64,000 nt of DNA from a virus, in IMG/VR virus record IMGVR_UViG_3300021197_001489, positions 62,001-126,000 of that record, one strand, 5' to 3'. The notes under the pieces are model-generated. The model was not told where the DNA came from. It did not search any database and was given only the letters and a program-made list of their open reading frames with translations. Shown here piece by piece: positions 2,760 to 44,800 of the stretch (positions within the stretch are counted from its first letter, which is position 1; each line of letters begins with the position of its first letter). The position numbers were made by a program, and so were the translations under genes.

Positions 2760-2833
2760 CTTTTTTCCTTTCCTGGCATTCAACCTAAAAAAATTTAGTC
2801 AAAAAAATATGCTTTTGACGTTCGTTTATTTAG

Positions 2834-2862
2834 TTGACATCACCTTTTTTGTGTGTTATAAA
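2834..2862 (+). promoter_or_regulatory. Sigma70-like promoter for the split tmRNA
   Basis: TTGACA (2834-2839), a 17-nt spacer and TATAAA (2857-2862) match the bacterial consensus closely. Transcription would start near 2868-2870, at the first bases of the tmRNA acceptor piece. The -10 box also sits inside TATAAATA (2857-2864), the T4 late-promoter octamer, so the site could serve both early and late transcription. Confidence 0.75.
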
Positions 2863-2867
2863 TAAAG

Positions 2868-2930
2868 GGCAATGTTGAAGCAAGTTCAACGCTGAACAGG
2901 ACGTGGGGGCAGTACCCACCGCCTCCACCA
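2868..2930 (+). ncRNA. ssrA: tmRNA acceptor piece (circularly permuted ssrA)
   Basis: The segment ends in CGCCTCCACCA (2920-2930), the 3' acceptor strand and encoded CCA of an alphaproteobacterial-type tmRNA. CGCCTCC pairs with GGGGGCG at 3208-3214 at the start of the coding piece (one G-U). GTGGG (2903-2907) and CCCAC (2915-2919) form the T stem. GCAAGTT (2880-2886) can pair with AACTTGC (3352-3358) near the end of the coding piece as the joining helix P2. The order acceptor-then-coding is the permuted, two-piece arrangement. The T loop reads GGCAGTA instead of the usual TTCRANN. The 5' end is inferred from the promoter. Confidence 0.85.
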
Positions 2931-2943
2931 AAAGGAGATTTTT

Positions 2944-3192
2944 ATGAAGATTCGCTTTTATAAAAATTTAGACAATTGGCGCTGGATAGGATTCTTACTT
3001 GCAATGCTTGGTGCATTTATACTGAGTGATGCTAACACTGAGACACAGTGGGTAGGATGGACTGTAGCAGGTAGCAGTGGTGCTATCTGGATTTACATGG
3101 GCTACAAAGATAAAGATGTTCCAAGAACACTAATGGAAGTAATGTATCTAGCAGTTGCGTGTCGCGCAGTTTACAATTGGATAACGGGATGA
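2944..3192 (+). CDS. Small membrane protein between the tmRNA pieces (82 aa)
   Basis: The 82-residue protein has two or three hydrophobic stretches (WIGFLLAMLGAFIL near 15-28, WVGWTVAGSSGAIWIYMGY near 36-54, and a C-terminal VMYLAVACRAVYNWI) with a DKDVPR turn. It looks like an inner-membrane protein of a type I associate with marine T4-like phages; the function is unknown. A strong Shine-Dalgarno, AAGGAG (2932-2937), begins 2 nt after the tmRNA CCA. The stop codon lies 15 nt before the tmRNA coding piece. The gene therefore occupies the segment that RNA processing must remove from the permuted tmRNA precursor. Confidence 0.7.
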   Translation: MKIRFYKNLDNWRWIGFLLAMLGAFILSDANTETQWVGWTVAGSSGAIWIYMGYKDKDVPRTLMEVMYLAVACRAVYNWITG

Positions 3193-3207
3193 GAATCTCT
3201 TTTTGAT

Positions 3208-3368
3208 GGGGGCGAAATAGGATCGACTGGCAGTTATTAGACAAGTGGAGTTGTCCGGCGCAAGCTCGGTTAACGCAAGAAAACAACTAAGAGCAGCAAA
3301 TGATAATGCTCCTGTAGGATTACGCCTAGCGGCATAAACTACTGGGCTGGCAACTTGCCTCGAAACAG
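3208..3368 (+). ncRNA. ssrA: tmRNA coding piece (permuted ssrA) with tag frame
   Basis: It starts with GGGGGCGAAATAGGATCGAC, the 5' acceptor strand and D-loop-like region of tmRNA. The tag frame at 3293-3337 reads AANDNAPVGLRLAA and stop; the resume codon could be the first or second GCA. The tag has the alphaproteobacterial AANDN beginning and the LAA end recognised by ClpXP-type proteases. AACTTGC (3352-3358) pairs with the acceptor piece. The 3' end is approximate and placed before the palindrome at 3369. In the cell the RNA would rescue stalled ribosomes with SmpB; no smpB is seen in this window. Confidence 0.87.
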
Positions 3369-3385
3369 AAAAGTTGCAACTTTTT
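3369..3385 (+). terminator. Palindrome, possible terminator after tmRNA
   Basis: AAAAGTTGCAACTTTTT is a perfect inverted repeat ending in a T run directly after the tmRNA coding piece. It could end transcription or set the 3' processing site. The loop is very short, so it may be weak. Confidence 0.45.
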
Positions 3386-3387
3386 AC

Positions 3388-3415
3388 TTGACTATGGTAG
3401 TTTTTGTGCTATAAT
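3388..3415 (+). promoter_or_regulatory. Sigma70-like promoter upstream of zinc-ribbon gene
   Basis: TTGACT (3388-3393), a 16-nt spacer and TATAAT (3410-3415) form a near-consensus promoter for the genes starting at 3437. It lacks the CAGTTA start-region motif found at four promoters further right. Its -10 box lies inside the upstream extension of the next reading frame, which is why the later ATG was taken as the start. Confidence 0.7.
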
Positions 3416-3436
3416 AAGTATAGTAAAGGATTCGAA

Positions 3437-3679
3437 ATGAGTTGGACTTGCACATTATTTGGACATAACTATTCAGTTACCAGCGTGTTTGGGAACTATG
3501 CTTTTTGTTCTAAATGTGGAGAACCACTGGTTATTAAAGATCCTTTTACACTATCACCTGGTGAACGCAGATACATTTCAGGTAAGTTATATGAATGTAA
3601 CGAGCTGGGCATAATGATATTGGTACCTATAGAAGGAGACGACAATGAAACTGTCATTGAAAGAAACGACCAAGAATAA
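3437..3679 (+). CDS. Small protein with a CxxC zinc-ribbon half (80 aa)
   Basis: The 80-residue protein begins MSWTCTLFGHNY and contains CSKCGEP near residue 27, so C5, H10 and the CxxC pair could form one zinc site. The rest is acidic and ends EDQ-like without a membrane segment. The ATG at 3437 follows AAAGGA and lies downstream of the promoter. Its 3' end overlaps the next gene by 35 nt in another frame. Function unknown. Confidence 0.6.
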   Translation: MSWTCTLFGHNYSVTSVFGNYAFCSKCGEPLVIKDPFTLSPGERRYISGKLYECNELGIMILVPIEGDDNETVIERNDQE

Positions 3680-4103
3680 ACTTTTTTATGCGCTGTTAGG
3701 TATTGGCTTTGTGCTCAATGTTATGCCGGCTAATGCTGTTGATAGTGTAAATGCAACCATTACCCAACATTACAAAACTGTGATTGACCGCAAGCCATAT
3801 GTTGTTGAAGTTTGTGAAAACAGAACAGTTGGCGGAGATCGAACCGGTGATACACTGCGTGGTGCAATTATTGGCGGTATTATTGGCAACAATGTTACAA
3901 AGAATGTAGACAATGGCGGTGCAGTAGGCGCACTGTTAGGCGGCATACTTGGTAATAAGAACAGCACTGCAACAGGCGGAACGCAACGTGTATGCTATCA
4001 ACAGACTCGCTACAATGAAACTGCTACTGAAGCATATTCGCACAGTACTGTTACCTTCCGCGACCAAAACGGTAAAACTCAAACACTGAGATTTTACCAA
4101 TAA
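3645..4103 (+). CDS. Exported glycine-zipper protein (17 kDa surface-antigen type)
   Basis: The 152-residue protein has a signal peptide (basic KNK, hydrophobic ALLGIGFVLNVM, then ANA cleavage near residue 31). Residues ~67-105 form a glycine-zipper 2TM segment (RGAIIGGIIGNNV and GGAVGALLGGILGNK) as in Rickettsia 17 kDa-like envelope proteins. Two cysteines (near 58 and 117) could form a disulfide in the periplasm. There is no lipobox. In the host it would sit in or near the outer membrane; a role in lysis or envelope change during infection is inference. AGGAG lies 6 nt before the ATG, inside the previous gene. Confidence 0.7.
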   Translation: MKLSLKETTKNKLFYALLGIGFVLNVMPANAVDSVNATITQHYKTVIDRKPYVVEVCENRTVGGDRTGDTLRGAIIGGIIGNNVTKNVDNGGAVGALLGGILGNKNSTATGGTQRVCYQQTRYNETATEAYSHSTVTFRDQNGKTQTLRFYQ

Positions 4104-4162
4104 GAACATATACGGTTTGAAGTGTGTATAAAAAAGCGTCTTAGTCACACAACTCCTAACTG

Positions 4163-4318
4163 TTAAGGAAACATTTGAGATCCTGAGCCTCTGTACCGTT
4201 ACTTTAGGTGTGCAGTTGACCACTGTTGAACATGCATCAGGAGGAATTGCTGGCTGTAGATAAGCCCATGGGAGAACATAGGTGTTGAACCTACCCTAGT
4301 CCGTAGTAGATTCCTTAA
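4163..4318 (+). ncRNA. Structured non-coding region, possible 6S-like RNA
   Basis: The 276-nt space between 4103 and 4380 has no credible reading frame. TTAAGGAA (4163-4170) and TTCCTTAA (4311-4318) are exact complements 140 nt apart and would close a long hairpin. Inside are TCCTGAGCC, which resembles the 5' arm of 6S RNA, and a TAGGT-GTTGA-ACCTA hairpin. The size (~156 nt), closing stem and mostly unpaired middle fit 6S RNA, the RNA that mimics an open promoter and binds sigma70 polymerase. The following gene encodes an RNA polymerase omega homologue, which makes this appealing but does not prove it. A plain regulatory leader is the alternative. Confidence 0.33.
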
Positions 4319-4379
4319 ACATGTGACAGTACTTTGAATCGTATATGCTAATTCCACTTAACCACAATGAGGATTTACA

Positions 4380-4640
4380 ATGGCACGAGTAAGCAACAAA
4401 GCAGGCATCGAAGCAGTTGGCGGATCACAGTTCGACCTTATCACAATAGCTGCACATCGAGGACGTCAGTACAGCAAAGGTGTACGTCCATTGGTTGATC
4501 GTCCAGGTGGACGCGGCATGACTGCACTGAGAGAAATTGAACAAGGGCTTGTTGGGCGCGAAGTAATGGACGACATCGTAGACAAGTATTCGCATATCAA
4601 ACCAAAAACTGAGTTTGAAGACTCCGACGACGATAATTAA
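4380..4640 (+). CDS. rpoZ: RNA polymerase omega subunit homologue
   Basis: This 86-residue protein matches RpoZ in length and order: MARV at the N terminus, the conserved helix FDLITIAAHRGRQYSKG (residues ~18-34), then MTALREIEQGLV (~47-58) and an acidic tail. Omega binds the beta' subunit and helps polymerase assembly; it also carries part of the ppGpp site in proteobacteria. A phage copy could replace host omega and retune polymerase late in infection, which is inference. GAGG lies 9 nt before the ATG. A possible polymerase-binding RNA precedes it. Confidence 0.8.
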   Translation: MARVSNKAGIEAVGGSQFDLITIAAHRGRQYSKGVRPLVDRPGGRGMTALREIEQGLVGREVMDDIVDKYSHIKPKTEFEDSDDDN

Positions 4641-4661
4641 AAGTGAATGGAGGAAACTACT

Positions 4662-5264
4662 ATGCGTTATTTTGAAAAATTATTCCATGCTGTAGTGCTT
4701 TGTTGTGCTTTGAGTTTTTGGAGTGCCACAGCATTTGCACAAGCACCCGAAGGTTTAACTATTTGTAACGGACAGTTTGCATTGTGCGCAGCCAGTGCTT
4801 GTAAACCAACTGGCGGGAAAATTACCAACAGTTCAGGTGTTGAATATCCAGAAGTGATTTGCACATGCCCAATTCTCAAAGGCAACAACCTGGCAGATCT
4901 TGATGCAGGCAACATGCAAGGTTCATGTGAGCCCACCGATGCTGACCATGTGTGGAGTACATTTTGGCCGCGTTTTGAATACCCAAGACAGCAAAATGAC
5001 TTTTCGCACAATCCAAAAGAAATGCGTGGCAGCATTCAAGAATGTCCGGCAGAGCTAAAGCAAGGATTTCGTGCTGCCAACTGTTTTAGTTGGAACTGTG
5101 AAATTGACGCAAACGGTTTAGCAATTTGCCGTTGCCCAATGGGACAGTCACCAGAGGATACACCATTTTTGATTGAAACAGTACCGGAAGAGTTTCCGCA
5201 GCGTTGTTTTGAGCATCCAGTGAGTTTGCCATTGTCAACTATCAAAAAGTTAGAAATGCAATAA
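4662..5264 (+). CDS. Secreted cysteine-rich protein (200 aa)
   Basis: The 200-residue protein has a clear signal peptide (AVVLCCALSFWSATAFAQA, cleavage after AFA or AQA). The mature part holds about 12 Cys in two similar halves: CNGQFALCAASACKP...VICTCPI and ECPAEL...NCFSWNCEI...ICRCPM. The repeated C-x-C-P ending suggests a duplicated disulfide-bonded domain for the periplasm or cell exterior. GGAGG lies 8 nt upstream of the ATG at 4662. I do not recognise the family. It is followed 7 nt later by tRNA-Ser. Confidence 0.65.
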   Translation: MRYFEKLFHAVVLCCALSFWSATAFAQAPEGLTICNGQFALCAASACKPTGGKITNSSGVEYPEVICTCPILKGNNLADLDAGNMQGSCEPTDADHVWSTFWPRFEYPRQQNDFSHNPKEMRGSIQECPAELKQGFRAANCFSWNCEIDANGLAICRCPMGQSPEDTPFLIETVPEEFPQRCFEHPVSLPLSTIKKLEMQ

Positions 5265-5361: not shown

Positions 5362-5379
5362 TTTTTGAAGGACCAACTG

Positions 5380-6780
5380 ATGTCTATAGCGCAAGACTTT
5401 TTCAATATTGTGCAACGTTATGGAAACCGTATAGCAGTGGACGACCCTGAATCAGGTTCAATAACGTATAAAGATTTTGCAGGACTTGTTGCATATTTTG
5501 CAAATCACTATAGACAACTAGGCGATGCTCCACGTATCTTAATACACTTGCCGCAAGGTACTCTTGCTTATGCTGCAATGATGGGCAGTGTAGTATCGGG
5601 CGCAACCTACGCACCTGTAAATGTGCGATCGCCTGTTGCACGCCTTGACATGATAGTAGACCAGTTTACACCTGACTTAATTGTGTCACAGTCAAACGTG
5701 CCGTCAGTTACTGAAAGACACAGTGACTTTGGTATCTCGCCCTCTGATGCAAGTTCTTATGTAATCTTTACATCTGGTTCAACTGGCACACCAAAAGGTG
5801 TCGAAATTTCAAGAACAGCGCATGCCCTGTATGTAAACAACTGGCGTGAGTATACTGGTATTGGGCCTGACGATCGCGTTAGTCAACATCCTGCTATATC
5901 ATTTGATGCATCAGTTTCGGATATATACGGAGCATTAACAAGTGGCGCAACACTGATACCTTTTGGTAGCAATGTCAACCGAATGTTGCCTGGTAGAAAA
6001 ATTAAATCAGCAAAGATATCAATTTGGAACTCAACACCTTCAGTGATTGATCTAATGCTGAACTCAGGAGAACTCGAATCAGACAGTATGCCCGATCTTA
6101 AAATTTTTAGCAGTTGTGGAGAAGCACTTCTGCCCAGACATGTACTGGCATTGCGACACGCTGCACCTGATGTAAAAATTTTTAACGCCTATGGACCTAC
6201 TGAAGCAACAGTTGGAGTTACCTGTGCAGAAATTAAGGACAGTGATTTGATTTACACCAGTTTACCATTAGGCGATGCCTTGCCCGGCAACAGAATCGAG
6301 TTAATCAATGATGAGATTGTGATAGCAGGTGCTCAATTAGCCGAAGGATATTGGCGCGATCCGCAGCAGACTGAGAACAGTTTTCGTGTTGCGGATATTG
6401 GGCAAGGACCAGAAACAGTATACTTTACAGGTGATCTAGCAAAAATTATTGACAACAAATTGTTTTTCTGCGAACGCATAGACCATCAAGTAAAGATAAA
6501 TGGATATCGCGTTGAATTAGAAGAAGTTGCCCGTGCTGTCAGCGACGCAGCAGGATTGCCCACTGTAGCAATAGATTTAGATAATAAAATCTATGCAGTA
6601 GTAGAGGGTAAGGTTGTCAATATTGTGGGACGGAAGTCCGAAATATTACAAGCCACAGCAAAGACACTGGACAGTTATGCAGTACCAGTTGATATTGTTT
6701 GTGTTGATCATTTTCCAAAAACTCTAAATGATAAAGTTGACCGTTCCGAAATAAAAAGGATAATTACAAGCAATAGATGA
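5380..6780 (+). CDS. Adenylation enzyme, DltA-like (amino acid to carrier protein)
   Basis: The 466-residue ANL-family enzyme carries the adenylation core motifs in order: FTSGSTGTPKGVE (~133-145), SFDASVSDIYGALTSG (~183-198), SSCGEAL (~245), NAYGPTEATVG (~269), YFTGDLA (~352), HQVKINGYRVELEE (~371) and the final LNDKVDR lysine. The Asp in the FDAS motif fits binding of an amino-acid amino group. The layout and the CGE cysteine resemble D-alanine-carrier ligase DltA, where that Cys favours D-Ala. The likely reaction is ATP-dependent loading of an amino acid onto the carrier protein encoded next (4-nt overlap). The ATG at 5380 has AAGGA 7 nt upstream. The substrate is inferred, not shown. Confidence 0.82.
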   Translation: MSIAQDFFNIVQRYGNRIAVDDPESGSITYKDFAGLVAYFANHYRQLGDAPRILIHLPQGTLAYAAMMGSVVSGATYAPVNVRSPVARLDMIVDQFTPDLIVSQSNVPSVTERHSDFGISPSDASSYVIFTSGSTGTPKGVEISRTAHALYVNNWREYTGIGPDDRVSQHPAISFDASVSDIYGALTSGATLIPFGSNVNRMLPGRKIKSAKISIWNSTPSVIDLMLNSGELESDSMPDLKIFSSCGEALLPRHVLALRHAAPDVKIFNAYGPTEATVGVTCAEIKDSDLIYTSLPLGDALPGNRIELINDEIVIAGAQLAEGYWRDPQQTENSFRVADIGQGPETVYFTGDLAKIIDNKLFFCERIDHQVKINGYRVELEEVARAVSDAAGLPTVAIDLDNKIYAVVEGKVVNIVGRKSEILQATAKTLDSYAVPVDIVCVDHFPKTLNDKVDRSEIKRIITSNR

Positions 6781-6995
6781 CTGAGAAAGCAAAAATCGTA
6801 CTGGCTGATGCACTTGATTGTGCAGTTGATGATATCCAAGATGGATGGACTCGTGGCACAGGTAGATGGGATAGTTTAGCACATGTGCGATTGATGTTGA
6901 TATTGGAAAGTGAGTACAATTTTGTTATCAATGACGATAATTTTGAAACAGTGAACACAGTCTCAGACATACAGGTAGCAATAGAGGAACAATAA
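6777..6995 (+). CDS. Acyl/peptidyl carrier protein
   Basis: A 72-residue acidic protein with the four-helix carrier layout. The phosphopantetheine site is Ser in RWDSLAHVRL (residues ~30-39), followed by ESEYNFVI and a C-terminal helix SDIQVAIEE. The start ATGA overlaps the stop of the adenylation gene, so the two are translationally coupled and the enzyme most likely charges this carrier. A holo-ACP synthase gene 360 nt downstream could add the phosphopantetheine arm. A D-alanyl carrier (DltC-like) role is possible. Confidence 0.83.
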   Translation: MTEKAKIVLADALDCAVDDIQDGWTRGTGRWDSLAHVRLMLILESEYNFVINDDNFETVNTVSDIQVAIEEQ

Positions 6996-7017
6996 AATGG
7001 GTGCTGGAGGAAATTTT

Positions 7018-7098
7018 ATGCTTATATGGATGCTAGCAATCTGTATAACACCATTCATTATTGATTTTCTTTTAAATAAATGGACAATAGAGGAATAG
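7018..7098 (+). CDS. Tiny single-span membrane protein (26 aa)
   Basis: The frame ATG 7018 to TAG 7096-7098 encodes MLIWMLAICITPFIIDFLLN followed by KWTIEE, one hydrophobic helix with a charged tail. GGAGG lies 7 nt upstream. An ATG at 6997 would give 33 residues but lacks a site. It fills the gap between the carrier gene and the next basic protein and is likely translated. Function unknown. Confidence 0.45.
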   Translation: MLIWMLAICITPFIIDFLLNKWTIEE

Positions 7099-7102
7099 GC
7101 AA

Positions 7103-7360
7103 ATGGGTAAAAAAAGATCAAGAGCATCACAAACCTCCAAAGGCTTGGTGAACAAGAATCCAAACAGTGACAGCAAGCGTGTGCAAAAAGCATTGCGCAG
7201 AGAATATCGTGGCAGCACTGCTGAATTGAATAACAAGATGAAAGCACATCTTAAATTAAAAAATGTTATGCTTACTGTCCCAAATCCAAACACAAACGAA
7301 ACCAACAAGCGTTTTATCCGTGTTTCGTCACGTGAAGTTTGGGGAAGTTCTAAACGATGA
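7103..7360 (+). CDS. Basic hypothetical protein (85 aa)
   Basis: An 85-residue, strongly basic protein (MGKKRSRASQTSKG start; many Lys, Arg and Asn) with no hydrophobic segment and no Cys. It could bind nucleic acid or ribosomes, but no domain is recognised. Its stop overlaps the acpS start (ATGA), tying it to the carrier-protein operon. GAGG lies upstream of the ATG. Confidence 0.6.
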   Translation: MGKKRSRASQTSKGLVNKNPNSDSKRVQKALRREYRGSTAELNNKMKAHLKLKNVMLTVPNPNTNETNKRFIRVSSREVWGSSKR

Positions 7361-7758
7361 TTCTTGGCATTGGCACTGATATTGTCGATGCACGACGCAT
7401 TCAGTCTGAGGTAGATCGGAATTACGATAAATTTACCAAACGCATTTTTTCAGCTGCTGAAATAACCGCCGCCAGAGAATCCAGCGATCAAGCCAACTAT
7501 TTTGCCAAGCGTTTTGCAGTTAAAGAAGCAGTCTATAAGGCACTGAGCGTTTCAGGTACAAGCGGCTGTAAGTGGCATGAAGTAGAAACTGTTTCTGCAC
7601 CAAATGGTGCACCAATAGTCAATCTTACTGGTCGCTGCAAAACAGCACTTGAGACAATGACGCCAAATGGATATACAGCAGATCTAGCCGTATCACTGAG
7701 TGACGAGCCGCCATATGCCTTGGCGTTTATTGTCATTAGCGCCGAACCGAATGGATAA
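7357..7758 (+). CDS. acpS: Holo-[acyl-carrier-protein] synthase
   Basis: A 133-residue AcpS-type phosphopantetheinyl transferase. It starts ILGIGTDIVDARRI with the catalytic Asp and contains FAKRFAVKEAVYKAL (~48-62) with the Mg-binding Glu and conserved Lys. Length and motifs match AcpS, which moves phosphopantetheine from CoA to the carrier serine. Together with the upstream adenylation enzyme and carrier it completes a minimal thiolation module in one operon. Phages rarely carry acpS, so a dedicated partner for the phage carrier is the simplest reading. Confidence 0.9.
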   Translation: MILGIGTDIVDARRIQSEVDRNYDKFTKRIFSAAEITAARESSDQANYFAKRFAVKEAVYKALSVSGTSGCKWHEVETVSAPNGAPIVNLTGRCKTALETMTPNGYTADLAVSLSDEPPYALAFIVISAEPNG

Positions 7759-28436: not shown

Positions 28437-28999
28437 TATATCAATTCCAATTGGTCATTGTCTAGCACTGGCTGTTTTTCCAGTACTTGTCTTTTAAACT
28501 GTTCCGCACCTTTGTGTACATTGTCTTTCCAGTCATCTCCGTCTCCGCTGTCTGAGATAAATTTGTAGCAGTCAAAGGGCAATCCAAACTTGGTAGAAAC
28601 TTTTGCTAGTGCGTAGGCTTCCATTTCACACACTTGATAGTTAATATGCGGCGTGCTAAAACTGTCACCGGTTCCACAAACGTACAAGCTGTCATGTTTG
28701 GTATCACACACAATCATTTGTTCTTCATCACCAGGTGACACATACAATGGCAAGCCCAGTGGTGTACAATCCATATCGCGCTCAATTACTGCACTAATAC
28801 CAATCAGTTTGCCTACCATTTCTGGTAACCCTCCAGCACTACCATAGTTTACCACTTTACTGTATAGATTATTATAGCACAGTTCTGAAGTCAATGCAAT
28901 GGTAGCATTTACCTTTCCTACACCTGTAATTAACTTTTTATATCCTAGTGGCAGCGGGCCAGGTAATTCTTCTTCTAATGCAACTACTACCAGGATCAT
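28436..28999 (-). CDS. Nucleosidase/phosphorylase-family protein (MTAN-like)
   Basis: The 187-residue protein has the purine-nucleoside phosphorylase fold: MILVVVALEEELPG start, TGVGKVNA (~25-32), NYGSAGG (~50-56) and the substrate site VCEMEAYALAKVSTKFGLP (~124-142). In MTA/SAH nucleosidase the same EMEA holds the ribose, and the FISDSGD segment supplies the catalytic Asp. It is shorter than typical MTAN (~230 aa), missing part of the middle. MTAN also removes 5'-deoxyadenosine, the inhibitory by-product of radical SAM enzymes, four of which are encoded just upstream in the operon. Confidence 0.78.
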   Translation of the reverse strand: MILVVVALEEELPGPLPLGYKKLITGVGKVNATIALTSELCYNNLYSKVVNYGSAGGLPEMVGKLIGISAVIERDMDCTPLGLPLYVSPGDEEQMIVCDTKHDSLYVCGTGDSFSTPHINYQVCEMEAYALAKVSTKFGLPFDCYKFISDSGDGDDWKDNVHKGAEQFKRQVLEKQPVLDNDQLELI

Positions 29000-30198
29000 T
29001 GAGGTCCCCCATATTCAATTGCTTCGGCTAGTTCGCTGTGATGGCTACGCAAGTCTTGACTTCTGCGCCAGTCAACATCTGCTACTTTCATGCGCAAGAT
29101 ATTGCCATCAAGGCTAGCACCACCGTTTATAAAGTCAATGATATTGTCAAACTCTTTTCTGTGGTATGCAGTTACGTCAGCATCTTGCAAACGTTTGATA
29201 GCTACTTTCTTTGCTGCTTCGGGCAGTGTGCTTACACTGTGATAGTATGCTTCGTGCAGCATATTCCAATACACAAAGTCAAACTTGCGTGTGTCTATCC
29301 ATTTCGCAAGTCCTTCGAGGTACATTACATTGAACACATTAACTGTAGAGCATACCTGTAATTGCATGTTGTTGCTCCGGTCGCGCATTGCTTCAAAGCT
29401 ATCGATGTTGCTGTTTACTTCAGCCCATACAGCATTGGCTCTTTGATATTCAAATCGTTCGTCAACGTCGTCGATTGAAAAAGCAACTTCTACCAGTTTG
29501 AAGTGCTGCCAAATTTCTTCCGCATGCTCTGGATAGTGTGTGCCGTTTGTGTTGTAGTGTATTTCAATATTGCCAGCAATGCCTCTATCTATACAGCGTT
29601 TTAGTAATTCAAAGTGTTCTTTGATCATAAATGGTTCACCGCCAGTAAACTCCAAGTAGCGAATTTGATCCATCATAGGATCCACTGTATTCCAAAATTC
29701 TACATTCTTTCTTGGCCACGCGCCTTTTTGTAACATCTCGTAGTGAAAGCTGTCTTTGCCTTCAAACTTGACTTCTTCGGTTGCAAATGTACTGCTGCTC
29801 CAACTTCCGCAAATACGACATTTGAGGTTACAGATGTTGCCCAATTTAAAATCAATGAATATAAGCGGTTTAGCATCTTGTGTCCATTCTGTGTCTGGGA
29901 CAATGTGTTTGAGTCTATCCAGTGTGTGCATGCGTTTGCTTGTGCGACCGCTTCGTTCTTCATTCCAGCATTTCCTACAAGTTTGCGGCTTCTTGCCATC
30001 CAAGAAGTCTTGCCTAAGATTATTCATGTAATTACTGTGATGTATTTCATTTAGTGTGTTGGTATTGAGATCATATTTGTTACCATCAGTATCCTTGATC
30101 TCATCTTCTGCCAAACAACAAGGACGAGTTGTGCCAATTGGGCTTGTTTCAATACTGATCCAAGGAAGCACACAAAACTTATCGTGTGGTATTTTCAC
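28996..30198 (-). CDS. Twitch-type radical SAM protein 2 (400 aa)
   Basis: NICNLKCRICGSW places the radical SAM Cys at 123, 127 and 130, followed by LEFTGGEPFMI. N-terminal Cys at 9, 27, 74 and 77 match the operon-wide twitch pattern (C-x17-C, then C-x2-C). The FCVLPWISIE and RPCCLAEDE stretches are shared with protein 3, its closest relative here. It overlaps the nucleosidase gene by 4 nt and protein 3 by 4 nt. Substrate unknown. Confidence 0.86.
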   Translation of the reverse strand: MKIPHDKFCVLPWISIETSPIGTTRPCCLAEDEIKDTDGNKYDLNTNTLNEIHHSNYMNNLRQDFLDGKKPQTCRKCWNEERSGRTSKRMHTLDRLKHIVPDTEWTQDAKPLIFIDFKLGNICNLKCRICGSWSSSTFATEEVKFEGKDSFHYEMLQKGAWPRKNVEFWNTVDPMMDQIRYLEFTGGEPFMIKEHFELLKRCIDRGIAGNIEIHYNTNGTHYPEHAEEIWQHFKLVEVAFSIDDVDERFEYQRANAVWAEVNSNIDSFEAMRDRSNNMQLQVCSTVNVFNVMYLEGLAKWIDTRKFDFVYWNMLHEAYYHSVSTLPEAAKKVAIKRLQDADVTAYHRKEFDNIIDFINGGASLDGNILRMKVADVDWRRSQDLRSHHSELAEAIEYGGPQ

Positions 30199-31481
30199 GT
30201 TAGGACTCCTAGCTCTGGAATTGCATCCAGGATATTTTCTTTTCTAATACTGTCGAGTTGATTGGTTTTCTGCCAAAATTTTTCAATAAGTGCAGTATTA
30301 TCTGTGCTGTTCATATACTGCAATGCACTTTCAAATCCTACTGTTGCTCTATTAAGTTGGTCCAACGGACGCAACCATTCTAAATGGTCACGGTACTTTT
30401 GTTCAATTTGATCTTTGTATGCTTGCGGCGCAATATCGATGCGCAAGTACGCAGGGTCTTGTAAAATATTTACATTGAGGTCTTGCGGCTTTAGCAATCC
30501 TTTATCAACCCAATCTCTGTGAAAGTCAGGCAAGTGCAGTGCATTCATAATGCTTAGTGTTGGAGAAATATAAAAGTCTACCTTGGGACAGATTTCCATC
30601 ATGGTAATTCTATTCTGTTCAATCTCTTTCCATTTAGTTCCTTTGCGTATATACTCGCCGTGTATACCCGAGGCGTCTAGGCTGGCACCAACGGCTACAC
30701 TGTCAAACTTTTTCCAGTAGTCAAATACCAGTCGGTCTTTGAGTTTGGTTTGTGTAAAGTTTGTGTTATAGATAAGACGAACATCGAAGCGTCCTCTGCG
30801 TTCTAGTTCTTCCAGTATAACATAATGCTCGTCCATCATGCAAGGCTCGCCGCCTGCAAAGTAAATCTGCTCTACGTGATCCAAGTGTTCAAACAACTGA
30901 TCCATCATATCAGTCTCAAAACGCCCAGCATAGTTTAACGGCTTGTTTTTCTTTGCCCATTCAGGTCCAGCTAGTGCTACTTGATCTTTGTACCAACTTG
31001 AACTAAAGATATGACCACAGCTTCGGCAACTTAAATTGCACAAGTTTGAAAAGCGAATGTCCCAGTAGGTCATTTCAAAATCGTCATATCCACCGTCTGC
31101 TTGCGTTTCAAAAACTCTGCTAATGTGGTGTCCATGGTGCTTGTTTGCGCTTTGACGTCCTGAAAAGAAACCTGATTTTTCTTGCTCATAACAACGTCCG
31201 CATGCAGGATTGTGTTGCTCCGTTAGCATGTCTACACGCAATTGTTTTTGCTCAGGTGAGTTCCAAATTTCCTTCATGGTGTTATTTTTGCAGTTGCCCA
31301 CTTGCCCTACACCCATTTCAGCATGACAACAAGGATATGCTTCGCCTGTTGGATAAGCATGTAGGTGTATCCAAGGATACATGCAAAACGTTTTGCTTTC
31401 TGTTAGCAGTGTACGTTCACGCGGGTTTAGATCAGCAAGCGCAATTTTGATTGGCTCGCTACTGTTGTAATTATAGCTCAT
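30195..31481 (-). CDS. Twitch-type radical SAM protein 3 (428 aa)
   Basis: Radical SAM motif NLCNLSCRSCG (Cys 148, 152, 155) followed by IYFAGGEPCMM. N-terminal cluster Cys at 33, 51, 94 and 97, with FCMYPWIHLHAYPTG and YPCCHAEMG. After the second Cys pair the EIWNSPEQKQLR segment is typical of SPASM/twitch proteins that act on peptides or sugars. It overlaps proteins 2 and 4. Confidence 0.86.
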   Translation of the reverse strand: MSYNYNSSEPIKIALADLNPRERTLLTESKTFCMYPWIHLHAYPTGEAYPCCHAEMGVGQVGNCKNNTMKEIWNSPEQKQLRVDMLTEQHNPACGRCYEQEKSGFFSGRQSANKHHGHHISRVFETQADGGYDDFEMTYWDIRFSNLCNLSCRSCGHIFSSSWYKDQVALAGPEWAKKNKPLNYAGRFETDMMDQLFEHLDHVEQIYFAGGEPCMMDEHYVILEELERRGRFDVRLIYNTNFTQTKLKDRLVFDYWKKFDSVAVGASLDASGIHGEYIRKGTKWKEIEQNRITMMEICPKVDFYISPTLSIMNALHLPDFHRDWVDKGLLKPQDLNVNILQDPAYLRIDIAPQAYKDQIEQKYRDHLEWLRPLDQLNRATVGFESALQYMNSTDNTALIEKFWQKTNQLDSIRKENILDAIPELGVLT

Positions 31482-32823
31482 TGTACCAATCCTTTATAGT
31501 GGGAAATGCTGTGCCAAAGTCTTTGCCTCTACGTTCATCGTACTGTGTGTAAAATTGTTTAAAGTCGTTATGCAATTTAGGCATATCAAACGTATCACTG
31601 TGCGGAGTTTTAACAACATCAAGATAATCAATTAAGCGTTCAGTTTGATTGATTTCGTGTTCGTGAATAAGCTCACTGTCTCTGTTTGTGTCTAACCAAG
31701 ACTGCAATCGATTCTTGTGCAGTGTGCGCAGTTCATCGGGCAGTGCTAATGGTGATTGAAAACTGGGAAAACGCAATATGTTTAGTGTAAAGCTAGGAAA
31801 GTCTCTGCCATATTGCTTTTTAAATTGCATCAAGTAATCCAAAAACTCTGGCAGTGATTCCAAACATAGTGCGTTAATGGTACACATGTTGTGCAAGCCG
31901 CGCAGTTTGCCTGAGCCTGCTAGCAAATGCATGTTGCGTGTCCAGGTGCCCCACTCTAATCCGTCACGAATATATTCTGCCTGGGTGCCTAGACTTTCAT
32001 TGCTTGTATAGATGTCAAGTGGTGTGCTGTCTGCCCTGTCTAACAATTTCAGTATGTCTGCGCTCTCCAATCCAAGATTGCTGTTAATAGCAATAGTGGT
32101 TTTGCTTGCACCTTTGTTTTCTTTAAACCAGTCTAGTAACTTCCATAGGTGCCCGCTCATAGCAGGCTCACCGCCGGTAATACGCAACTCGTCGAGTGTC
32201 TTGTGTAAATCGCTTTCCCACCATTTAAAAAATGCTTCAATGTAAGGATTGGTTTCATTGTATCTGTAACGCTGCGAACTATCATGTTCATGCGTAAAGT
32301 GATTGCGGCCATCACTGATTAAATTTTCATATCCGCCATGCTTTTTTAAATCTTTAACCCAAGTGGTACTGAACGCTGGATTACAATAGCTGCAAGCAAA
32401 CTGACAAGTTCTGTCAAATGCTATTTCCAGTGTTTTGAGATCAACATCTTGATTGTAGTCAAGTTCGTGTGCTGCTTGTAGGTCTTGATCGGTGTAGATA
32501 TTGCTTTTGTACACTCTATCACTTATGTTATCTCGACCAATATCCTCAATCTTCCAGCAGTATTCACAACCACCAGGCCGTTCGCCGCACTGCATTTGTC
32601 GGCGTTCTTCTTTTTTCTGTGGCGTATTATGTAGAGCTTTTGGATTTGCTTCTACTTCCTCAACACTTACATAGTGCGGAAGTGGATGATGGCAACTAGT
32701 AGTCATGCCGCTGCCTAACCATATGGTAGCATTGTACCACTTGGCACCACACATGCTCGAACTAAGTGGATCGAGAACCCGTTGTTTATATTGTAAATCA
32801 GTTTCGTTGTTTTGCTTTGGCAT
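31471..32823 (-). CDS. Twitch-type radical SAM protein 4 (450 aa)
   Basis: Radical SAM motif RTCQFACSYCNPAFS with Cys 140, 144 and 147, then LRITGGEPAMSGHLW. N-terminal Cys at 25, 44, 86 and 89. It shares the MCGAKW, NPKALHNT, CEYCWKIED and FSTTWVKDL stretches with protein 5 in equivalent places, so the two are paralogues. The SGNH gene lies between them. It ends 10 nt into protein 3. Confidence 0.86.
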   Translation of the reverse strand: MPKQNNETDLQYKQRVLDPLSSSMCGAKWYNATIWLGSGMTTSCHHPLPHYVSVEEVEANPKALHNTPQKKEERRQMQCGERPGGCEYCWKIEDIGRDNISDRVYKSNIYTDQDLQAAHELDYNQDVDLKTLEIAFDRTCQFACSYCNPAFSTTWVKDLKKHGGYENLISDGRNHFTHEHDSSQRYRYNETNPYIEAFFKWWESDLHKTLDELRITGGEPAMSGHLWKLLDWFKENKGASKTTIAINSNLGLESADILKLLDRADSTPLDIYTSNESLGTQAEYIRDGLEWGTWTRNMHLLAGSGKLRGLHNMCTINALCLESLPEFLDYLMQFKKQYGRDFPSFTLNILRFPSFQSPLALPDELRTLHKNRLQSWLDTNRDSELIHEHEINQTERLIDYLDVVKTPHSDTFDMPKLHNDFKQFYTQYDERRGKDFGTAFPTIKDWYNEL

Positions 32824-32831
32824 ATGTGTAC

Positions 32832-33743
32832 TTACTTCCTTGCAATTTGGTCGAGAATTTTATTTGCGTAAACTTGATGCTGTTGCGGTCCTGGATGTAC
32901 ACCATCAAAACCAAAATCAATGTGCTGAGTTTGATATGGTAATTGCACATACTCTGGCAGAGTATTGATTAGCACTATGAGATTTTCACTGCATAGTAGT
33001 GGCACTAATAATAATCTGGCTTGAATTTTATTACAAAAGTTTTTCACTTGGTGTATGGCTATCACAGATTTATACAGCGATGTTTCACTGAATGTATCTC
33101 TATTCCAAGACATGGTATTTTCCTTACCATTGTTCCATTCAGATCGTCTCAGTTCTTGTGTGATGCCCCATAATACTATATCATTTTTGTTAATATTAGA
33201 TCTTAAGATTTGATCAGCATGGAATTCGTTACTGCTACCACCCTTTGCAAGATCTACCAATGGAAGTTGTAATTGATTAGCAATTAATACTGGAAACCTT
33301 TGATCATTGTTGACACCTACACCTTTGGAATAAGAACATCCTGTTACAAATAAATTACATGAGCTGTTTTTTCTCGTGTCTAATAGATCACAATAGTGTA
33401 TGCCTAGTGAGGAGTAGTCTCCAATAATATGTTTATCTACTAATAGCGATAAAAAATATTTGGTAATATTACAAGAATTAGCTACCCGATACGTCCCATC
33501 ATCATCTGACCAAACCTTGGGTGGTTCATACACAATAGTATCTGCATGGCACATTACAGAATACAAAGCTGCTTCAGTGTTGGTAATTTTAGGTAGATCC
33601 GCCATTGACGTGTGAAATACTACATCATTGGTATAGGTAGTTTCCAGATATGTTTGGTAGTTTTTACCAGTCAACAACACACTGTTTGGTCCTGCAATGT
33701 CTGACAGATACTGCCCACAATCTCCCACGTATAGTTTTATCAT
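32832..33743 (-). CDS. SGNH-hydrolase-like protein (303 aa)
   Basis: The 303-residue protein has an N-terminal ~125 residues without known domain, then FVTGCSYSKGVGVNNDQRFP (~134-153), a GDS-like nucleophile block with Ser in GCSYS, AKGGSSNEFHADQIL (~167-181) with the Gly and Asn of blocks II/III, WGITQELRR, and DGVHPGPQQHQVYA near the C terminus with the Asp-x-x-His pair. This is the SGNH/GDSL ester hydrolase or acyltransferase fold. It could deacylate or acylate a sugar. The DltD transferase of D-alanylation also has this fold, but similarity to it is not established. Confidence 0.72.
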   Translation of the reverse strand: MIKLYVGDCGQYLSDIAGPNSVLLTGKNYQTYLETTYTNDVVFHTSMADLPKITNTEAALYSVMCHADTIVYEPPKVWSDDDGTYRVANSCNITKYFLSLLVDKHIIGDYSSLGIHYCDLLDTRKNSSCNLFVTGCSYSKGVGVNNDQRFPVLIANQLQLPLVDLAKGGSSNEFHADQILRSNINKNDIVLWGITQELRRSEWNNGKENTMSWNRDTFSETSLYKSVIAIHQVKNFCNKIQARLLLVPLLCSENLIVLINTLPEYVQLPYQTQHIDFGFDGVHPGPQQHQVYANKILDQIARK

Positions 33744-35179
33744 GCTAATGCTTTGGCCAATTGTTCACACTCTTTCCACCATGTTTCCATTTCAGGAAAT
33801 GTGTTAATAAAGTTAGTGCCTCTGCGTCTATCATGTTCGTTGAAAAATCTGTAGAAGTCTGCTTTGTTGCGATTGATGTATTCTGGATCTAGTTTTTGCC
33901 CATCGCGCATCCAGGCAATGTCTCTGTCCAGCCTGTTCACTTCATAGTCTTTGAATCCTTTGAAGCGTGTAGATTCAGTCTCCAAATTCTGCTGTGTCCA
34001 AGTTTTAAGCATCTCCAGTTCATGTACATAGCTCTCAGGTAATAACTGTAAACTTTGCCATGTTGGTGTGCGTAGCACAGGTGTATCAAACCAAACTCTT
34101 TGGTAGGTTTTGCTGTATATTTGACGCAAGCCTAAAATAGCAGCAAACAAATCTTGTAATGTGGTCACACTTAAATTGTTCATTGTTATAATAAATGTTA
34201 CACTGTTACGCTCTGGTATGTCATTGAGAAACTGGTTTACTCTGTCCCACAACAGATTAAAGTCAAGCCCATGACGCATGTATTCTGCTTGTGCAAACAT
34301 GCCGTCCAAGCTCACATACTGCATAAAGTGTTCAACAGTGCCTGGTTTTTCGCAAAGCATTGTAACATATGCTTTGTACTTTTGCCACAGTTTTTCATCT
34401 ACACTAAAGTTTGATGTCGTACTCAGATGCAGTTTGCTAGATGGATTCATCATCACATGATCAAATACTTTGTAGGTATTCTTATCCATCATTGGCTCAC
34501 CACCGGTCATTCTAAAGTGTTCAAGTTCCGGATACAGTGTAGGCCACCATTCCCAAAATGCTTCCACATATGGGTTGTGTTCTCTTGCCGGTATTGGTCG
34601 ACGCTCACCTTGAAAGTGTGCAGGATCGTTGTGCGGAGTTGATGTTGGCCAAGCGCCTTCGCGCTGTGCTTCTGCCATCCAACTTGAACTAAACTGTGGG
34701 CTGCAATAACTGCAACTTAGATTGCATGCACTGTTAAAGTCTACTTCAACATAACTTGGTGTAATATCTTGATCCCAGGGTGCATTTTTAATAGTTTCAA
34801 AGTCTTTGATTGCCCATGGTTCTCCACTACGATAATGACGGTCGCTTAGTTTGCCGTTGTCCTCCATCTTCCAACAATAGTCACATTCGGGCGGACGAAC
34901 ACCTTCTAACATCAATTTGCGTTGTTGCTTTTTGTGTTCTGTGTTGTGCAATGCACCAGGGTTGGTTTTGATTGCTTCAGCATCTGCTCTGTGCAACGGC
35001 GGATGATAGCAACTGTTGTTCATGCCAGTTGTTAGATGCAGACTAAGTTGCTTCCATTTAGCCAAACACATGCTAGGACTTACAGTGTCTAGTTTTTGTT
35101 GTGCAATTTCGGCGTCACTAAGGAACTTGCTTTTAAAGTCGGCATCAACTTCGTCGCCTTTATTTTGTTTGATTACCAA
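33740..35179 (-). CDS. Twitch-type radical SAM protein 5 (479 aa)
   Basis: Radical SAM motif SACNLSCSYCSPQFSSSW (Cys 152, 156, 159), then FRMTGGEPMMDKNTY. N-terminal Cys at 38, 57, 99 and 102. It shares NPGALHNT, ECDYCWKMED and SDRHYRSG with protein 4. Both end with a similar tail (GTNFINTFPEMETWW here; GTAFPTIKDWY in protein 4). It overlaps the SGNH gene by 4 nt and the glycosyltransferase-like gene by 7 nt. Confidence 0.86.
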   Translation of the reverse strand: MVIKQNKGDEVDADFKSKFLSDAEIAQQKLDTVSPSMCLAKWKQLSLHLTTGMNNSCYHPPLHRADAEAIKTNPGALHNTEHKKQQRKLMLEGVRPPECDYCWKMEDNGKLSDRHYRSGEPWAIKDFETIKNAPWDQDITPSYVEVDFNSACNLSCSYCSPQFSSSWMAEAQREGAWPTSTPHNDPAHFQGERRPIPAREHNPYVEAFWEWWPTLYPELEHFRMTGGEPMMDKNTYKVFDHVMMNPSSKLHLSTTSNFSVDEKLWQKYKAYVTMLCEKPGTVEHFMQYVSLDGMFAQAEYMRHGLDFNLLWDRVNQFLNDIPERNSVTFIITMNNLSVTTLQDLFAAILGLRQIYSKTYQRVWFDTPVLRTPTWQSLQLLPESYVHELEMLKTWTQQNLETESTRFKGFKDYEVNRLDRDIAWMRDGQKLDPEYINRNKADFYRFFNEHDRRRGTNFINTFPEMETWWKECEQLAKALA

Positions 35180-41874: not shown

Positions 41875-44800
41875 TTAACCTTGGTCCTTAAGAAACAGTG
41901 CCGCAGGAGTTGTTTGTTCTTGCAGCGCAATTCCGTTGCTTGCAGTGCTTGCACCTTGTGCATACATCACCTTACTAGTTAATTTACTAAACCAAACATC
42001 CACATTTGCTGCCGGAGCTGTTGTTAAAGTAATTTCAGTAAAGGCTATATCTGTTCCTGTAATTGTGTAATCTGTTTCAGGTGTTAACACTTTTCCAGCA
42101 ACTGTAACTTTTATTGATTCGGCGTATTCTGTGCTATCTTCACTTACTGGAACGGTGATTGAAGTAATGAATCTAGTTGTTGTTCCGTCGCCGGTATTTG
42201 TTGTGTCAGTTGTAGTTACTTCTTGATACTGGCTCGGTAACTGTTCGCCCGGACCGACATCACTTGCTACTGTGCCAATTGCATGAGCACTTGCACCAGT
42301 ACCAGCAGTACCTCTACGCAATCCGCTTACACTGTTGCTGCTATCGTTGCGTTCTCTGTATGTGATTCTTTCTGCACCGACCATAACTTGACCAAAAATG
42401 TTCGAAGCAAGATTGGGTTCACTGAGTTTTGTTACGTCTGTGAAATATAAGACATCGTCAGTTTGGGTAGCAGCTTGTGCAAGTTCTGTTGTATTGCCGG
42501 TGTTCAGTCTTAGTAGTTTTTCATTTCCAAGCATATCTTGGAAAATACGGAAGTTCAAACTGTCGGGAACTAAATCCATTGTAAACATGGTAACTGCTAG
42601 TACGTCAGCAGCACCAAGGATACTGCCACTCACAGTGAGTATGCTAAGTCCGTCGCCGCCTGTGCTAATAGTAAATTCAGATCCAGGTTGCAAAAAGTCA
42701 CCGTTCAGTGTGACTGATATGCGACTTGGATCCGTAATTAATCTGCCTAGTGCAAAGTCATTTGTGTCAACTGTTGTACCAACTGTTAGATCAAAACCGG
42801 CACTATCGTATGGAACCTCATCAAACCCATCACCGGTTGTTACACCTGTAGTGGTTGGCCCTACAAACACTTTTGTCAGTATGTCTTGTTGTGCAGTATC
42901 ATTGAAAGTGTAAACTGTAAACTCTGCATTTGGAATAGCACTAACACGCAGATTCAAATCAGTTGTATTCACCATAGTATAGTCAGCCTCAGTGGTGACT
43001 GCAATTTTGATATCTGCTCCTGCTGCTGGCAATGCACTAGCAGTGAACTCAACATAACGATCGCTACTTCCGTCCCATGTACTCAGTGTAAAATCCAATG
43101 CAAGATTCTGCTGCACGTTGTCCACGTACACCAGTACGTCATTGTCTGAAATTAAATTCTGATCTGTTTTGTCTGCGGTTGCAAGGTAATAAGGTCCAAG
43201 GCTTGATCCATCACCAGTATATTCAATTCCTGATGGTGGACGCAGTCTAAAGCCGTTACGCTCAACAATCATGTTCGCTATATTGGTGCCTTGTAGACTG
43301 TTTGTTAATGGATACTGTGAGCTTGATCCGTCATAGTCAAAGTATTGCGCTTGTGGAGTACTCCACGAATACTGTATTGGCGTTGTTGCACCGAGTGCAA
43401 CAATTGTTACCCAATCACTTAAGGTTGGCTGTGTTGTGAAGGTTACCGCGGTTGCAAAACTTCCGCTAGCTGCATAGGTGTAGTCTGTGGTAATCTCACC
43501 ATTGATAAACACCACAAGTTCTACAATTTCACTATATGTCACAGTGATAATTTGTGTTTTGGCTTTTATGTTACTTCCAACAAAACTTTCTTTGTAAAGT
43601 TGTGATCCGCCGCCAATACCCCACACTGTAACACCTAATATATCTCCAACTGTTGCTCCAGCGTTCACGGTAAGTGTTTTAGATACCCAGTCCACTACAT
43701 AATTGCTTGGGCTAATATTTTGTGTTACTGTATTATTGACAATATCAATGCCAACAGGATGAAGCATTAAATCGCCAAAGGATACCACTGTGCTTACGGC
43801 TGTGTACAAAGCGTTGACGTTTTTAATATCAAACCCATGCCCGTCACTGTTCCAGTCACTGCCTGGGCGTGTATAAACTTTTAAGTCTAATGTATCAAAC
43901 TCGCTGCCAGGCACTAGTTCTTCAGGAGCATGTGAACTGTATGTGTCAATGAACCCGCCGCCTTCAACATTGATGTCTGTTGCTCTAATGCCAAGATACG
44001 AATCAGAAAATGCACTTTCGTAAATTACATCTAGTATAGCAGGATCATACGTTGGCAATCCTTCTGGTCCAAAGTCAAGGTTATCAAATGGATTGATATC
44101 AAAGTTGCCTACATCAAACCCTGTGTTTTGATTAAAGTTTGGCCCTGTAACTTGCACTCCAGGATAATCAATGCCTGTCATTACCTGTGCCAGTTCGCGA
44201 CCAGGTTCACTTGGATCTGGAGTGTACAAACCTATTGTTCTATCAGCACCGTCAAGTGTGTCTTGCCCAACTTTTGTATAGTTCTCTGGATTAAACGTTG
44301 CTTCACTTGTAAAGTTAGCAGTAACACTGTATACTTCTGGCAAAGTTACATCGACTACGCCTACAGTTGGTACTGGGAACCTAACTAGTTCTCCAGCAGT
44401 AAATGCAGTGTTAGCAGTCCAGTCTTTGACTTGGCTGGTGTATGTAATTCTATCATACTTGATTGTGGTTGTAAGGTCTCGCACCAAGTTTGGAGTAAGC
44501 ACTGCAACCGCAGTTGCCCCGCTGCCGTTGCCACCTGATATAGTAAGTATTGGTGTAGTGACATAACCACTACCTGGAGTGTCAACTACAATCGATACTA
44601 GTACTCCAGCACTGTTTACTTTGGCAGTCATTGTTGCCTGTGTAACGGCATCTCCAGTTACAATAACTTGCGGCGGTACTGTATATCCGCTGCCGCCTTC
44701 TATCACAGTAACGCTGGCAACTTTAAGTTTGTAGTTTGTGATCCATTGACTGTAAGGCCAAGTTTCCCAAATTGGAGCGGTGCTTGGGAAACTGCTTAGT

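Follow-up and report, generated by a model that had tools for sequence, protein, structure and literature searches.

A candidate family of structured RNAs recurs beside an RNA polymerase omega gene in jumbo phages

Introduction

The bacterial 6S RNA (SsrS, RF00013) is a rod-like hairpin of about 200 nt with paired ends and one large central bubble; it binds the RNA polymerase holoenzyme and templates pRNA. The GOLLD and ROOL RNAs, roughly 600–800 nt in length, form RNA-only oligomeric cages. One report describes GOLLD and ROOL as phage-carried structured RNAs of unknown function that often lie near tRNA islands, with GOLLD bound to ribosomes in pull-downs (PMC12286853). Phage two-piece tmRNAs have already been published (PMC9004378). 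In gene transfer agents, GafA, the regulator of a phage-like element, binds the RNA polymerase subunit omega, which shows that phage-like control can take hold of omega (PMC9638019).

Here we describe a structured RNA that adjoins an omega gene in a jumbo-phage record. The window, that is, the whole stretch of 64,000 nt analyzed, comprises positions 62001–126000 of a 316,012-base virus record (IMGVR_UViG_3300021197_001489). In setting, GOLLD and ROOL are the closest known systems, as the RNA is likewise phage-borne and found near tRNAs; it differs from them in having no Rfam match, in its length of 190–241 nt and in being linked to omega. Like 6S RNA, it has ends that pair and it sits beside the gene of an RNA polymerase subunit, but it is multibranched with a loop–strand pseudoknot where 6S is a rod, and it has no match to the 6S covariance model. 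tmRNAs (alpha, beta and permuted models) are found in the same phage clusters; the RNA itself has no tmRNA-model match, and a permuted tmRNA is encoded apart from it in the window and in many relatives. The neighboring phage protein is a homolog of bacterial RpoZ (PF01192, TIGR00690). Unlike bacterial RpoZ, and unlike the omega bound by GafA, it is encoded by the phage and adjoins an RNA. At a coarser level, structured RNAs that phages carry close to tRNA islands are a known phenomenon; what we rate as new is this family.

Genomic setting of the phage omega gene

The region is a gene-expression cluster containing tRNAs, a permuted tmRNA, a phage omega gene and the RNA. The features flanking the RNA in the window are as follows.

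2830–3381 (+): permuted two-piece tmRNA of the same cluster, separate from the RNA (Rfam alpha_tmRNA, 69.5 bits; tmRNA_permuted, 82.4 bits)
3645–4103 (+): glycine-zipper ORF (Rick_17kDa_Anti, Pfam PF05433), with its stop 3 nt before the RNA
4380–4640 (+): RNA polymerase omega (RpoZ) homolog of 86 aa (Pfam PF01192), 32 nt after the RNA

An earlier note on this DNA had placed an rpoZ homolog after the RNA, and the ORF at 4380–4640 bears this out, matching Pfam RNA_pol_Rpb6 (PF01192) at 27.1 bits with a cut-off of 26. Against NCBIfam TIGR00690 the same protein scored 23.4 bits, just under the cut-off of 23.6. The phage omegas tested matched PF01192 (14/14) and TIGR00690 (14/14) at E ≤ 1e-3. When two phage omegas were compared by tblastn with isolated phages, only distant rpoZ genes were recovered, in records taken for contamination or bacterial contigs. 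Omega homologs are common in this jumbo-phage group, and the phage gene appears to have been little noted.

An Rfam search of the whole window at gathering thresholds returned only the permuted tmRNA, hit by two models that overlap, and a single tRNA. The tmRNA halves are parted by a stretch with an 82-aa ORF (2944–3192), and the tag read by eye is ANDNAPVGLRLAA; ARAGORN missed this tmRNA and Rfam detected it. Adjoining omega at 4647–5264 (+) is a secreted Cys-rich protein of no known family, with relatives in 36 viral loci, many of them without omega or the RNA; one phage contig encoding this protein (L105) carries a glutamine riboswitch at 2766–2817. Elsewhere in the window, an APS reductase beta-subunit-like protein (3–410, +, PF12139) overlaps a ring-hydroxylating oxygenase-like protein (367–1500, +, PF00848), and a class II tRNA-synthetase-like protein (PF00152) lies at 1911–2783 (−). 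The genes at 5365–7758 (+), an AMP-binding enzyme (PF00501), a small acyl-carrier-like ORF with no Pfam match and a phosphopantetheinyl transferase (PF01648), form a possible small acyl/peptide activation set. A run of similar Cys-containing ORFs occupies 28996–35179 (−), of which the one tested (30195–31481) has a SPASM iron–sulfur domain, and a single ORF of 4510 aa spans 41875–55407 (−).

Relatives of the RNA in other phage records

With the omega protein as query, 16 viral loci were obtained, and comparison of the DNA upstream of omega revealed that several have a common segment ending in CCTTAAAC. An alignment of five of these loci (A4) contained a long closing stem, a hairpin P3 and a P4/P5 arm, and the loop of P3 pairs as a pseudoknot with the strand that leads into the closing stem; 98.4% of cells were paired, with two-sided change in 7 of 38 pairs. 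One of the A4-type relatives, L013 (contig 3300044723_007539, about 210–230), is without the P4 hairpin and inner P5 stem of its near relatives. A covariance model built from the five A4 near relatives, with the window excluded (R1), matched the window at 4109–4345 with 29.7 bits (E 4e-6) in a search of 4 kb with filters off, the next-best match there scoring 7.4 bits. Over the complete 316-kb record, this locus was the sole match at E ≤ 10 (E 3.1e-4).

Independently of omega, an alignment of the MoxR ATPase from the same cluster led to 80 jumbo-phage loci. R1 applied to 65 of these (1.11 Mb) yielded a new member, L128 (28.9 bits, E 0.0016); the only other match, L115, is a contig of a training sequence. 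A descriptor search then gave L121 (= L123), L134, L135, L138, L139, L140, L150 (= L151) and L153 (= L154). The descriptor requires P1, P3 and the pseudoknot, and contains neither P5–P8 nor the inner hairpin. As it is unspecific by itself, with 99 matches in reversed sequences, hits were retained only if the closing stem was complete or nearly so (12/12; 11/12 in L140) and the common motifs were present (GUGAG[CA]GAAAG after P1, an 8-nt P3 loop and UUAAAC), and they were then tested with a model.

A second covariance model (R2), built from an alignment of nine distant jumbo-phage RNAs (A9) and again excluding the window, matched the window at the same positions, 4109–4345, with 72.7 bits and E 4.8e-20 (7.0e-20 over the whole record). 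R2 matched 13 of 63 loci, among them L142, which the descriptor had overlooked because it has UUAAUC instead of UUAAAC; a fourteenth match, L129 (13 bits), was left out. On R1-type members R2 was weak (L026, 19.1 bits; L115, 11.8 bits) or, in L008, L012, L013 and L020, without a match at E ≤ 1, so the two branches are joined through the window, found by both models, and through L128, also found by R1.

A broader pattern of the 3′ motif occurred in 25 stretches, 10 in known contigs and 15 judged on reading to be chance; R1 matched none of the 12 of these 15 that were scored. Nine stretches from a pattern scan of bacterial genome contigs were likewise unmatched by R1, and a scan of neighboring genes through the Cys-rich protein gave no additional RNA. 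In 398 Pseudomonadota genomes, R2 under stricter filters found no convincing copy; its one marginal match (L196, 19.3 bits) lacks UUAAAC at its place and was judged to be chance. A scan of all IMG/VR by two RNA motifs alone returned 19 stretches, 7 in known records; the other 12 included one true member, L213/G467 (199.5 bits), with its omega gene 14 nt away. A 14-bit match from that scan (L202) was taken for chance. Short R2 matches (61 nt, 16–19 bits) in L033 (3992–4052) and in L110 and L111 (4914–4974), which bear omega without the full RNA, are perhaps chance or remnants. None of these, nor an R2 match at 55611–55691 of the window (10.6 bits), enters the counts, all being either unclear or chance.

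Structure and covariation of the RNA

The RNA is predicted to adopt a branched, pseudoknotted fold in which six bases of the P3 loop pair, as a pseudoknot, with the strand that abuts the closing stem P1. Its parts in the window are listed below; paired cells are those of the 14 aligned members described after the list.

4107–4347 (+): whole structured non-coding RNA of the proposed new jumbo-phage family, ~241 nt (R1 and R2 matches at 4109–4345, with P1 extended)
4107–4123 (+): P1 closing stem, 5′ strand, 17 bp with 4331–4347
4124–4150 (+): P2 hairpin, GUGU 4124–4127 with ACAC 4147–4150, drawn by eye from the sequence and alignment A12
4154–4169 (+): P3 hairpin, UCCU-AACUGUUA-AGGA, its loop carrying the pseudoknot strand 4159–4164
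4181–4242 (+): P7 enclosing P8 and P6, containing the TCCTGAGCC arm
4181–4185 and 4238–4242 (+): P7, UCCUG with CAGGA, 82.9% of cells paired
4196–4197 and 4207–4208 (+): P8, CC with GG, 90.5% of cells paired
4213–4216 and 4222–4225 (+): P6, CAGU with ACUG, 96.2% of cells paired
4243–4314 (+): P5, GGAAUU 4243–4248 with GAUUCC 4309–4314, 93.1% paired, two-sided change in 7 of 8 pairs
4279–4283 and 4289–4293 (+): P5 inner hairpin, UAGGU with ACCUA, the window copy drawn by eye
4315–4320 (+): UUAAAC, near-invariant, before the pseudoknot strand (13 of 14 members; UUAAUC in L191)
4325–4330 (+): pseudoknot 3′ strand GACAGU, paired with ACUGUU 4159–4164 and abutting P1
4331–4347 (+): P1 closing stem, 3′ strand, 17 bp with 4107–4123

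Given no structure, RNAalifold predicted 48 pairs on A9, 30 of which differ on both sides in at least one sequence; the pseudoknot helix emerged among them unprompted. Fourteen members were then fitted to R2 (alignment A12), with a final structure of 48 pairs; across these related, not independent, records, 95.2% of 647 cells pair and 40 of 48 pairs changed on both sides. None of 500 shuffles reached any of five measures, and pairing fell to 33–49% when partners were slid by 1–3 columns. P1 is 96.7% paired (two-sided change in 12 of 13 modeled pairs), P3 is 100% paired (3 of 4 pairs) and the pseudoknot is paired in 84 of 84 cells (4 of 6 pairs), figures that are biased upward for the nine members selected by a descriptor demanding these three elements. 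The pseudoknot, which R2 does not model, also pairs in five members from outside its training set: L190, L191, L193, L194 and the window. P2, at the place of the GUGAG[CA]GAAAG motif of the relatives, was not counted as a helix. Judged by the R2 match and the strong covariation, the conserved RNA element at 4107–4347 is real, far beyond chance. The earlier note had named a lack of covariance in related phages as evidence against its RNA, and such covariance is present.

What that note had outlined was a 156-nt segment closed by TTAAGGAA and TTCCTTAA. Both strings are present (4163–4170 and 4311–4318, 156 nt end to end), as is TCCTGAGCC (4181–4189), but the conserved element runs from 4107 to 4347 and not from 4163 to 4318. 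TTAAGGAA and TTCCTTAA form 8 of 8 pairs in the window and only 4–6 per sequence in the remaining 13 members, so that 72 cells out of 109 pair over all 14, and are thus not the conserved closing stem. In the revised structure, TTAAGGAA spans some of the P3 loop together with the 3′ arm of P3, and TTCCTTAA takes in the last bases of the 3′ strand of P5 and the conserved UUAA. The folding energy of the 156-nt segment was no better than that of shuffles (z +0.38; 126 of 200 shuffles folded at least as well), and folding energy alone was uninformative (z +0.38 and −0.59).

Comparison with known RNA families

Rfam comparisons took in all families at E ≤ 5 or 10. Across 3400–4700 of the window at E ≤ 10, neither 6S nor any other family matched on the RNA, and searches of L008, L020, L021, L024, L026, L121, L138 and L153 found tRNAs and tmRNAs but nothing on the RNA; the tmRNA models match other places of the same loci. 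A separate search of eight RNA loci again placed no family on the RNA; RF00013 in particular had no match in these loci, whereas E. coli ssrS, the positive control, scored 139.8 bits in the same search. The missing RF00013 match and the branched, pseudoknotted fold together indicate that the RNA is not 6S. The proposal of a 6S-like RNA directly upstream of a phage omega therefore stands in its RNA and its omega gene, and falls in its 6S identity, boundaries and closing pair. Readings as RNase P, SRP, a group I intron or a retron were dismissed by eye and had no Rfam matches. In a literature search with preprints and most subscription journals outside its scope, we found no omega-linked RNA and no publication joining 'omega subunit' and 'jumbo phage'. 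With no match to a known family and no such RNA in that literature, we rate the family as new.

Linkage of the RNA to omega, tmRNA and tRNA genes

Linkage was assessed in 50 whole records, 49 from the viral loci plus that of the window. The RNA was found in 20 (17 by R2 below E 1e-15, plus the R1-type G002, G008 and G012; an R2 match in G001 at E 0.09 was counted as noise) and omega in 32. Both were present in 19 records, omega alone in 13, neither in 17 and the RNA alone in one, G027, a 110-kb fragment. R1 and R2 thus found no RNA in 13 of 32 omega-bearing records, including G001, G013, G025 and G046 (220–350 kb). All 19 RNA–omega pairs share a strand (the omega of G021 being a weak match, E 1.4e-9), with a median gap of 199 nt, a maximum of 2788 nt and, in six of the 19, a gap of 13 nt or less. 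The RNA lies 5′ of omega in 9 of the 19 records and 3′ in 10. The omega link of R1-type members, first found through omega, is partly a matter of ascertainment; R2-type members were found through MoxR, and the motif-only IMG/VR scan is a less biased sample. The RNA and omega recur as neighbors in distantly related jumbo phages.

A tmRNA was found in 22 of 27 records searched. Of the 20 RNA records, 17 of the 17 having a tmRNA carry it within 5 kb of the RNA (median 1242 nt, maximum 4954 nt, using the farther of two tmRNAs in G033; the nearer one leaves the median as it is). Because tmRNA is also close, a common cargo region may explain part of the linkage to omega. Omega is usually the nearer of the two, its median distance from the RNA being approximately six-fold shorter, and in the RNA-bearing G002, G006, G008, G009 and G012, where the tmRNA search gave no match, the RNA is still beside omega. 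In L121, L128, L134, L135, L138, L140 and L142, tRNAs are found no more than about 1 kb from the RNA, and in L128 and L134 the RNA is within tRNA arrays. The element and a predicted tRNA-Thr overlap in L135, at the 3′ end of the tRNA. The RNA of the window, like that of several relatives, starts a few bases from the preceding stop codon and ends ahead of a new start, and the L128 element stops 2 nt before tRNA-Arg, an arrangement that suggests a processed stable RNA.

Discussion

We consider it very probable that 4107–4347 encodes a free-standing, trans-acting RNA of a new family, linked to omega within a jumbo-phage gene-expression cluster; this confidence covers a new-family, trans-acting, omega-linked RNA and excludes the polymerase step. 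Action in trans is what we infer. The RNA would be transcribed as part of a polycistronic message, from which host RNases would free it by cutting at the ends of P1, and as a ribonucleoprotein it would then act on the gene-expression machinery of the host.

Seen in the window alone, where the RNA ends 32 nt before omega and between two same-strand genes, a cis-acting leader or intercistronic element controlling omega expression might be suspected. We regard this as quite unlikely, for the RNA keeps no fixed 5′ place, lying 3′ of omega in over half of the paired records; the next downstream gene varies (omega in the window, small ORFs in L036, L042 and L043, a 247-aa ORF in L031), and both the length of the closing stem and the occurrence in tRNA arrays are in keeping with a separate RNA. 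A divergent 6S RNA, suggested by string resemblance (CCTGAGCC and pairing ends) and the omega neighbor, is far less credible still, given the branched, pseudoknotted fold and the failure of RF00013, at E ≤ 10, to match either 3400–4700 of the window or the eight RNA loci searched with the ssrS control, which was readily detected. The RNA may nevertheless have a function resembling that of 6S while standing outside the 6S family.

A stable RNA of the phage tRNA island, in a GOLLD/ROOL-like setting and acting on ribosomes, tRNAs or trans-translation, with omega merely a neighbor in the cargo cluster, deserves more weight, although we think it rather unlikely. It would account for the members within tRNA arrays and the tmRNA near every RNA in records having both, and it would parallel ROOL and GOLLD near tRNA islands and the ribosome-bound GOLLD of the pull-downs (PMC12286853). 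Against it stand the five records in which the RNA remains beside omega with no tmRNA match, and the much shorter distance to omega. As the RNA stays with omega despite changes of order and where tmRNA was not found, we rank host RNA polymerase carrying the phage omega as the likeliest partner of the trans-acting RNA, a tentative choice that falls short of an even chance; a partner on the ribosome, tmRNA or tRNA side ranks below it, as a possibility we doubt. Joint action of RNA and omega on host RNA polymerase is plausible. More speculatively, the two could form one unit, in which omega replaces or joins the host subunit and the RNA binds the polymerase so marked.

The family is a covarying RNA without Rfam relatives, carried in records of up to about 350 kb beside a phage-encoded RNA polymerase subunit. 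Its small size and defined partner gene make it an easier target than ornate RNAs, and it poses a sharp question: do jumbo phages take over host transcription via an RNA? If the one-unit reading is true, a jumbo phage would redirect or tune the transcription of its host through an RNA cofactor that differs from 6S.
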